This document shows, piece by piece, positions 10,354 through 49,958 of a stretch of DNA of 64,000 bases. The notes under the pieces are model-generated. The model saw nothing but the letters and a program-made list of their open reading frames with translations, did no database searches and was not told the DNA's origin. The stretch's first letter is position 1, and the number at the start of each line of letters is the position of its first letter. The position numbers were made by a program, and so were the translations under genes. This stretch comes from Castellaniella sp. MT123 (GTDB lineage: Bacteria; Pseudomonadota; Gammaproteobacteria; Burkholderiales; Burkholderiaceae_B). The stretch is taken from NCBI RefSeq assembly GCF_039614765.1, contig NZ_CP154879.1, positions 1,116,001 to 1,180,000 of the forward strand. Reading direction: 5' to 3'.

Positions 10354-10368
10354 AATTATCCACACACC

Positions 10369-47573: not shown

Positions 47574-48878
47574 CTAGAGCAGCGAGTCGGTACGCACGAC
47601 GTCGGCCTGGGCCCAGCCCTGGCCGAATTCGATATCGATACGCTCTGGAATCTTCAAGTCTAACGCATTTTTGACGATGCTCCCGTCGCTGCGATGCACG
47701 ATCGAATATCCCCGCGTAAGGACCGCGCGGGGGTCCAGCGCACGCAGCGTCCCTTCGGCCACGGCCAGCCGGCGCCCGTCTTTTTGCAGCAGCCGCTCCA
47801 TGCCCGCCTGTGTGCGCCTGGACGCCCAGAGCACAGCCTGCTCGTGCTGGCGCAGGCGCTGCCACAGCGGCGGCAGCAGCCGCTCGTAGGCCGCATCCAG
47901 CCTTTGACGATGCATGCGCAAGCGCTGAGCGGGAGAGATCAATTGGGCCGTCGCGCGATCCAGGCGAATCGCCGCATGCTCCAGCCGGCGACGCTGGTCG
48001 CGCATCAACTGGCTCAGCGCCCCCTGTACGCGACCCAGCGCCTGGTCCCGGCTGTCGCAGCACAGCTCGGCGGCGGCGGTCGGAGTCGGTGCCCGCAGAT
48101 CGGCCACGAAATCGGCGATCGTGAAGTCGGTTTCGTGGCCCACGCCGCTGATGACAGGCACCGGACTGGCTGCGATACGGCGCGCCAGGGCTTCGTCATT
48201 GAAGCACCACAGGTCTTCCAGGCTGCCGCCGCCTCGCACCAGCAACAGCAGATCGACCTCGGCGCGCACCGCCGCCTGATCCAGGGCCGCACACAACTGG
48301 GCGGCGGCTTCGCGCCCCTGGACCGGCGCCGGATAGACGATCACCCGAATGTGTGGAGCGCGGCGCGCCATGACCGAGAGCACGTCACGCAGCGCCGCCG
48401 CCGCCAACGAGGTCACCACCCCGACCGTGCGCGGCATCGCGGGCAGTGGACGCCGACGCGAGGGGTCGATCAGGCCTTCCTGTGTCAGCCGGTCCTTCAG
48501 GCGCAGAAACGCTTCGTGCAGATCGCCGCGCCCAGCGCGCCGCACGGATTCCACCTGCACCTGAAAGTCGCCGCGCGGCTCGTAGAGCGACACCTGGACG
48601 CGAAATTCGTAGCGCCCGCCCACATCGGGCACGAACCCCACCATCTGGGTCCGCCCCCGGAACATCACCGCGCGAACCACGGCGGCCTCGTCCTTGATGG
48701 AGAAGTACCAGTGGCCCGACGCGGCACGCGTGAAGTTGGAGATCTCGCCCACCACCCACAGGCGCGGAATTCCAGTCTCCAGCAGGCGGGCGACCTGGCG
48801 ATTGAGCTGTGACACGGTCAACACCGTGTCGTCCTGCGGAGAACCGCGCTGTTCATACTCTTGACCGATCAGACTCAT
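47574..48878 (-). CDS. xseA: exodeoxyribonuclease VII large subunit
   Basis: 434 residues. The N-terminal OB-fold has [21 protein letters not shown], and the catalytic core has [38 protein letters not shown] and [30 protein letters not shown] (given in parts). A coiled coil and C-terminal cap follow. ExoVII degrades single-stranded DNA from both ends together with XseB, which is not encoded nearby. A structured, DnaA-box-bearing intergenic region lies upstream. Confidence 0.96.
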
Positions 48879-49349
48879 GAAAAGCTATCCACAGAAAACA
48901 CTTTCTTGTCAAACAGGCCTGTTTTCGGGCATGCCCAAGGAGGCCATCAGAAAAAACATCAACAAGAAATCATAAGTTATTGATAAAAATGGATTAATCA
49001 GTGAAAGCAAAAATGTGCAAAAAATAGCCAATGAACCGCAAAGGGGCTTGAAACATGCGCCTGACGATTTTTATACACAGAATTATCCACAGAATCTGTG
49101 GATACTCGGCCAAAAGCCTGATGACACGCCACTTTCTCGGGTAATTTCCTGGGAAAACCGCATCTCATCCGCATCCAGGCCGCAGCGATCGCTGTGGCTA
49201 TTGCAAGGCCGTGCCCCGCCTGTCGCGCTGGCCACTCAGCGGACGGCCCAAAGCCACAAATGTGTGCGACATGGCGACGCGTTCAGAGCATCCCTGAGGA
49301 TAGAATAGGGATCTTCCGTCCACGGCACTGAACTCAAAGGAACTGGATC
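48879..49349. other. 471-base intergenic region with DnaA-box cluster and palindromes
   Basis: No gene is visible. DnaA-box consensus matches are TTATACACA (49071-49079) and TTATCCACA (49083-49091), direct and 12 bases apart; TGTGGATAC (49097-49105), inverted with one mismatch; and CTATCCACA (48885-48893), one mismatch. The second and third form a perfect 9-base inverted repeat with a 3-base spacer. An AT-rich stretch occupies ~48950-49020. There are also two palindromes, AAACAGGCCTGTTT (48911-48924) and GGGCATGCCC (48927-48936). The exbB promoter must lie toward the right end. Confidence 0.65.
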
Positions 49350-49958
49350 TTGCTGGACATCATCCAAGCAGCGGGCTGGCCCATCTGGCTGCTGGTGGCC
49401 ACTTCGGTCATTACGCTGGCGATCATCATAGAACGATTCCTGGCCCTGCGCGCCAGCCAGGTCATGCCCGCCGGCCTGCCCGAGCAGGTGCTGGAACTCA
49501 TGCGCCGCCAGCAGGACGAACCCGACGCGGTGCTACGGCTGGCGCGCGGCAGCCCCATGGGCCGCATTCTGGCGGAAGTCGCCGCACAGCGCGATCAGGA
49601 CGACGACTGGCGCCAGGCGGCCATCGAGGCAGTCGGGCGCGACGTCTCCTGGCGTCTGAACCGCTATCTGTCCGGCCTGGCCACCATTTCCGTCATCGCG
49701 CCGCTGCTGGGCTTGTTCGGCACCGTGGTCGGCATGATCGAGATCTTCGGCGCCTACGACCCAGCGGGCGGCGATCCGGCCCAGCTGGCTCACGGAATTT
49801 CAATTGCGCTCTACAACACCGGATTCGGGATCCTGATTGCCATCCCCGCACTGGCGTTCCACCGCTACTTCCGCTCCCGCGTCGAATATTTCCTGCACAC
49901 GATGGAGCGCGAGGCGGGCGCCCTGAACCGCCTGATCAGCCGTCGCGCCACGCCATGA
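49350..49958 (+). CDS. exbB: MotA/TolQ/ExbB proton-channel family protein
   Basis: 202 residues. Three transmembrane segments: IWLLVATSVITLAIIIERFL, then the conserved SVIAPLLGLFGTVVGMIEIF and GILIAIPALAFHRYF. With ExbD it forms the proton-driven motor that energises TonB-type transport. The TTG start at 49350 is the only sensible start before the first membrane helix. It overlaps exbD by four bases. No tonB is in the window, so TolQR-like use cannot be excluded. Confidence 0.9.
   Translation: MLDIIQAAGWPIWLLVATSVITLAIIIERFLALRASQVMPAGLPEQVLELMRRQQDEPDAVLRLARGSPMGRILAEVAAQRDQDDDWRQAAIEAVGRDVSWRLNRYLSGLATISVIAPLLGLFGTVVGMIEIFGAYDPAGGDPAQLAHGISIALYNTGFGILIAIPALAFHRYFRSRVEYFLHTMEREAGALNRLISRRATP

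Follow-up and report, generated by a model that had tools for sequence, protein, structure and literature searches.

A cluster of DnaA boxes beside an AT-rich stretch, in the gap between xseA and a gene labelled exbB in Castellaniella sp. MT123, raises the question of what the initiator DnaA would do there. The window, by which we mean the whole 64,000-nucleotide stretch of DNA that was analysed (1,116,001-1,180,000 of a single contig), had been given a preliminary description that listed three options, namely a replication origin, a datA- or DARS-like site and a DnaA-controlled promoter, and that leaned towards titration or regulation. DARS function was worked out in E. coli. We conclude that the cluster is probably a DARS-type element, a non-coding site turning ADP-DnaA into ATP-DnaA. 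Within the earlier list, box geometry and a phased IHF site single out DARS, and GC skew removes the origin; the geometry of E. coli datA is different.

The features are collected in Table 1. The three-box core occupies the noncoding gap between two divergent genes, xseA and a neighbour whose exbB label holds at the level of the ExbB/TolQ family, its score falling under the NCBIfam cut-offs for both TolQ and ExbB.

Table 1. Features of the DnaA box cluster and its flanks, in window coordinates
Feature	Position	Strand	Remark
xseA, exonuclease VII large subunit, divergent neighbour	47574..48878	-	TIGR00237, 436.6 bits, cut-off 180
Outlying DnaA box CTATCCACA, 1 mismatch	48885..48893	+	Adjoins xseA start
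AT-rich stretch, 75% A+T	48946..49032	.	Encloses predicted IHF site
IHF consensus TAAGTTATTGATA, 0 mismatches	48973..48985	+	98 bp upstream of box III; phase kept in relatives
TTTTGCACA, matches TTWTNCACA	49014..49022	-	Between predicted IHF site and core
DARS-type core (probable), boxes III-II-I	49071..49105	+	Single genome copy at ≤3 mismatches; E. coli comparison
DnaA box III, TTATACACA	49071..49079	+	Same position as box III of DARS1/DARS2
DnaA box II, TTATCCACA	49083..49091	+	Starts 3 bp past box III
DnaA box I, GTATCCACA, 1 mismatch	49097..49105	-	Inverted, 5 bp past box II
ExbB/TolQ-family gene, divergent neighbour	49350..49958	+	Below NCBIfam cut-offs of TolQ and ExbB

The sequence elements first reported here were all recovered: two consensus boxes (III and II) in direct orientation, 12 bp apart from start to start, at 49071(+) and 49083(+); an inverted third box forming a 9-base palindrome with the second (a 9-bp inverted repeat of boxes II and I at 49084-49104, loop 3 nt); a fourth near-match with one mismatch beside xseA; and an adjacent AT-rich block, whose 75% A+T compares with 37% for the whole window and is equalled by 0.19% of stretches of the same length. 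The core has the layout III -3 bp- II -5 bp- I(inverted) and reads TTATACACA-GAA-TTATCCACA-GAATC-TGTGGATAC. A terminator-like hairpin can also be drawn at 49084-49104; because 0.9 such hairpins are expected in shuffles, the 1 found is no evidence of a terminator.

Perfect DnaA boxes number 3 in the window against 0.56 expected, and genome-wide they show no enrichment when counted singly (20, versus 21 for the reversed pattern). A solitary perfect box, TTATCCACA(+), lies at window 10356-10364. The tandem pair of boxes III and II occurs once in the 3,366,678-bp genome. The full layout, TTATNCACA-3-TTATCCACA-5-TGTGNATAA, is a pattern of 25 specified bases that likewise has one genome occurrence at ≤3 mismatches, this copy having 1 mismatch; the analytic expectation by base composition is 8e-9 at ≤1 mismatch and ~1e-5 at ≤3, and the closest match in 279 further segments of 1.4 kb from this genome has 7 mismatches.

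Two E. coli elements provide the comparison: the DARS1 core, TAATACACA-TGG-TTATCCACA-GGAAT-AGTGGATAA, and the DARS2 core, TTCTTCACA-ACT-CTATCCACA-GAAAA-GGTGAATAA. The window core is identical to the former at 26/35 positions and to the latter at 24/35, and the two E. coli cores agree with each other at 24/35. Both DARS share one box spacing with box I opposed (PMC5742627), and the window core has this spacing, with box I opposite II and III; it also occupies a non-coding site, the xseA-exbB gap, away from the likely oriC at ~2.48 Mb. At E. coli control loci the closest trios have 9 mismatches (oriC-mioC), 6 (datA) and 8 (purH). We favour the DARS-type reading because spacing and orientation are those of both E. 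coli DARS cores and are absent from E. coli oriC, datA and purH.

The likeness to DARS1, which lies upstream of uvrB, consists of identical box geometry and the higher core identity, with different neighbours; in the available text of PMC5742627, DARS1 is a box core with a short flank and carries no IHF requirement. DARS2, in the rppH-mutH intergenic region, shares with the window both the III -3- II -5- I(inverted) order and a same-strand IHF consensus upstream of box III, but differs in its neighbours, rppH and mutH rather than xseA and exbB. With xseA and an ExbB/TolQ-family gene at its sides in place of uvrB or mutH, the element is DARS-type and is not assigned as an orthologue of DARS1 or DARS2.

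Conservation of the boxes at this locus in relatives, which the preliminary description had proposed as a check, was assessed in 80 exbB loci chosen by protein, not by box; the nearest ExbB relatives come from Castellaniella. An exact TTATCCACA lies ≤420 bp upstream of exbB in 58/80 loci, in 57 on the exbB strand. Allowing ≤5 mismatches, the core is present in 60/80: 52 loci carry a single core and 8 carry arrays. When offsets over ±60 bp were compared in 52 non-redundant loci with that exact TTATCCACA, a partner box stood at -12 on the same strand in 45/52 (≥6/8 bases) and at +14 on the opposite strand in 37/52, the next best offset reaching 12/52. Part of the core misses are shortened or rearranged stretches, xseA being without a match in the retrieved sequence of 11 of the 80 loci; in the three Pandoraea loci xseA is present and the core was not found at ≤5 mismatches. 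On a wider scale, the core occurs at ≤3 mismatches in 232/300 Burkholderiales genomes and at ≤2 mismatches in 174/274 genomes of the class, with 0 occurrences of the reversed pattern in either set. Distance from dnaA is not conserved, ranging from 0.29 to 0.84 of half genome in nine single-contig genomes with sizes rounded.

Within the AT-rich stretch lies a sequence that fits the IHF consensus TAAnnnnTTGATW (PMC8682772) without mismatch, and this consensus followed by TTATCCACA at ~98-bp range has a single occurrence in the genome. E. coli DARS2 has TAATGCATTGACT at -88 on the same strand and, 3 bp beyond it, a weaker second match; its IHF sites have been described as IBS1-2 (PMC4245941). The window thus shows a DARS2-type same-strand IHF match upstream of box III, but as a single match, at -98 instead of -88, a difference of 10 bp or one helical turn more; because of this distance we do not regard it as DARS2 proper. 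One loose-consensus Fis match, at 49015, falls between the IHF match and the core; the Fis site of E. coli DARS2 lies beyond the IHF site. A locus with an IHF match at -87 (L163) was considered as a DARS2 orthologue and set aside, its flanking frames having no NCBIfam family match.

The phase of the IHF site is kept in relatives. Among single-core exbB loci, a plus-strand match (≤1 mismatch) at -99..-96 occurs in 31/52, where 115 control windows gave a mean of 0.07 and a maximum of 1. A second set, drawn from the order and the class and picked by core alone (58 loci, of which 54 had full flanks and 51 were non-redundant), has IHF at -99..-96 in 29/51 against 0.22 expected. The mismatch limit was introduced on repeating the offset test, as partial matches inside the core had ranked highest in the earlier scan, in which, among the matches listed, -96 alone had at least 8/9 bases (9 loci). 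Across aligned core loci, mild conservation extends over columns -67 to -41 before box III, with AT-rich and CAAT-like positions to which no Fis site or weak DnaA box could be assigned.

Copies of the core also occur beside other genes. In the set picked by core alone, 37 flanking frames were scanned, several of which matched no family. The most frequent flank is priA, which encodes the replication-restart helicase (13 of those identified); prfB, parE, xerD, proS, a histidine-kinase gene and further genes occur once each, xseA being found as well. The priA-side cores come from Burkholderiales (L150, L154) and from the class (L159, L161, L172-L175, L184, L185, L170, L179), and several of them also have an IHF match at -96..-99. 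A module found beside unrelated genes, priA above all, fits a portable site.

In Duganella, Massilia, Pseudoduganella and Herbaspirillum the xseA-exbB gap holds arrays of cores. These make up 8 of nine loci from genera that we take to belong to the family Oxalobacteraceae; the ninth, from Oxalobacter formigenes (L060), has no core at ≤5 mismatches. The arrays (L041, L043, L058, L064, L065, L067, L073 and L076) comprise 4, 5, 7, 7, 8, 5, 7 and 6 cores, spaced mostly 117-275 bp apart, with a 1797-bp gap between the seventh and eighth core of L065; 10 shuffles of each gave 0. A minus-strand IHF-like site (≤2 mismatches), here at -31..-28, accompanies 48/49 array cores. What looked like paired changes on either side of the middle box had suggested an RNA or single-stranded DNA hairpin in these repeats, a reading that was dropped because fixed 12/14-bp box spacing and IHF phase explain the changes better. 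Taking the module as a plus-strand IHF site 96-99 bp before box III followed by III-3-II-5-I, we see an even balance for and against the broader proposal that it is a portable, IHF-phased DnaA-recharging unit of Gammaproteobacteria including Burkholderiales, placed at xseA, priA and other genes, which Oxalobacteraceae amplified into multi-DARS arrays with a second IHF layout.

In E. coli, ADP-DnaA interacts head-to-head on boxes I and II, loses its ADP and, as apo-DnaA, takes up ATP again; box III helps, as do IHF and Fis at DARS2 (PMC8682772, PMC5742627, PMC10380432). The source genome encodes DnaA, Hda (TIGR03420, above cut-off) and IHF-alpha, and has an open frame of 120 aa that carries a Fis-type domain. 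From E. coli biochemistry we infer DnaA binding, ADP release and an effect on initiation timing at the window element, and its architecture suggests the recharging role. DnaA would bind boxes I, II and III, a head-to-head pair forming on I and II and a third molecule, on III, stabilising both; IHF, ~98 bp upstream, would bend the DNA and aid formation of the complex; ADP would then be lost, and empty DnaA would detach and pick up ATP again, ready for the following round of initiation at oriC, 1.3 Mb distant. The DARS-type reading is further preferred because the core is unique in the genome, the IHF site is phased, relatives conserve the module, Hda and IHF-alpha are present, and oriC lies elsewhere. 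Counting against it are the IHF distance of 98 rather than 88 bp, a Fis match limited to one loose-consensus site, the variable distance from dnaA, the 20/80 exbB loci without a core, the 21/52 single-core loci in which an IHF match at -99..-96 is absent, and a fairly constant core-xseA distance, which would suit a promoter too.

That distance also speaks for the main alternative, which we consider unlikely: a DnaA/IHF-controlled operator for xseA (or exbB), at which trio-bound DnaA would repress or activate the divergent promoters and so couple the level of exonuclease VII to the replication cycle. We keep it in view because the genes flanking the core diverge and because the spacing of the core from xseA varies rather little. 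A search for xseA covered 80 genomes, 79 among the listed core matches (eight more listed ones were left out) plus the source genome, and found the gene in 79. Conditional on the core being among the matches listed, it lies ≤1.5 kb upstream of xseA in 58/79 genomes; the 68 cores in those 58 genomes all have one orientation and are mostly 213-290 bp from xseA. It is the distance to exbB that varies instead, between 92 and 399 bp in loci with one core, and other copies adjoin replication or repair genes, such as priA. However, E. coli guaB-xseA and priA-rpmE have no trio at ≤9 mismatches, so the trio is not tied to those genes. Boxes III and II, direct and 3 bp apart, do resemble the E. coli ‘double DnaA box’ sites of purH, polA and datA, the 3-bp double box being a DnaA dimer site preferred in vivo in E. 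coli (PMC11317965), but the two that were compared, those of purH and datA, are pairs of direct boxes lacking an inverted box I at +5 bp. Arrays of 4-8 cores exceed what an operator needs, and a search of 48700-49450 for a sigma-70-like promoter gave none, which weighs little in a GC-rich genome. A link to a DnaA box at E. coli guaB-xseA, as a box following xseA across orders, was rejected, guaB-xseA being without a trio; DnaA binding within guaB was not seen in E. coli (PMC11317965). DARS and promoter roles may both hold at once: DARS1 lies upstream of uvrB, which is among the genes regulated by DnaA (PMC11317965).

We judge decidedly improbable a datA-like sink that would titrate DnaA, binding it or speeding ATP hydrolysis once the locus has been replicated. 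Strong clustered boxes with an IHF site recall E. coli datA, with its multiple DnaA boxes and IHF site, and the multi-core arrays of Oxalobacteraceae would bind much DnaA; yet E. coli datA lacks the trio geometry (6 mismatches), one trio binds few DnaA molecules, and the locus is far from oriC, at 0.80 of half genome. The window has a box-IHF-box order (48885, 48973, 49071); in datA, DnaA boxes 2 and 3 lie at set distances on either side of an IHF site.

That the cluster is the chromosomal replication origin, for which the DnaA boxes adjoining a 75% A+T stretch would speak, has next to no probability, the AT-rich stretch being a predicted IHF site whose position is kept in relatives. The genome GC-skew check named in the preliminary description contradicts this option. 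Sampled in 20 stretches of 20 kb across the genome, skew is negative between ~0.85 Mb and ~2.37 Mb, is otherwise positive, and comes close to zero at base 1, 0.84, 1.01 and 1.85 Mb; it reverses sign near 0.85 Mb and near 2.48 Mb and nowhere else, and it is negative on both flanks of the box cluster. The switch from minus to plus thus falls at ~2.480 Mb, not at 1.165 Mb, and there, at 2479850-2480560, seven DnaA boxes at ≤1 mismatch lie in 570 bp with AT-rich segments, next to an aminotransferase gene and a phosphatase-like gene. This second cluster, ~25 kb from dnaA (2.505 Mb), is the likely oriC, and no three-box core was found there at ≤6 mismatches. The cluster beside xseA is ~1.3 Mb from it and 1.34 Mb from dnaA (0.80 of half genome); it is because of this distance, the skew switch and the second box cluster near 2.48 Mb that we do not take it for oriC.

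The DARS-type reading extends a picture in which sequences resembling DARS are conserved across many proteobacteria (PMC10380432), beta-proteobacteria are mentioned for DARS (PMC5742627) and the DARS2 core is tied to gamma-proteobacteria related to E. coli (PMC4245941). In the literature searched (titles, the beginnings of abstracts, few subscription papers) we recognised no description of a DARS at xseA-exbB, and in the same scope no DARS or core-plus-IHF layout in Burkholderiales and no multi-core arrays. DARS are a known kind of element, and the arrays are a possible new variant. A rule of the form ‘trio plus IHF at ~-98’ would make it possible to identify DARS sites in hundreds of genomes, those of Bordetella and Achromobacter among them, and the arrays, as natural variants in core number, would serve for studying recharging capacity against initiation timing.
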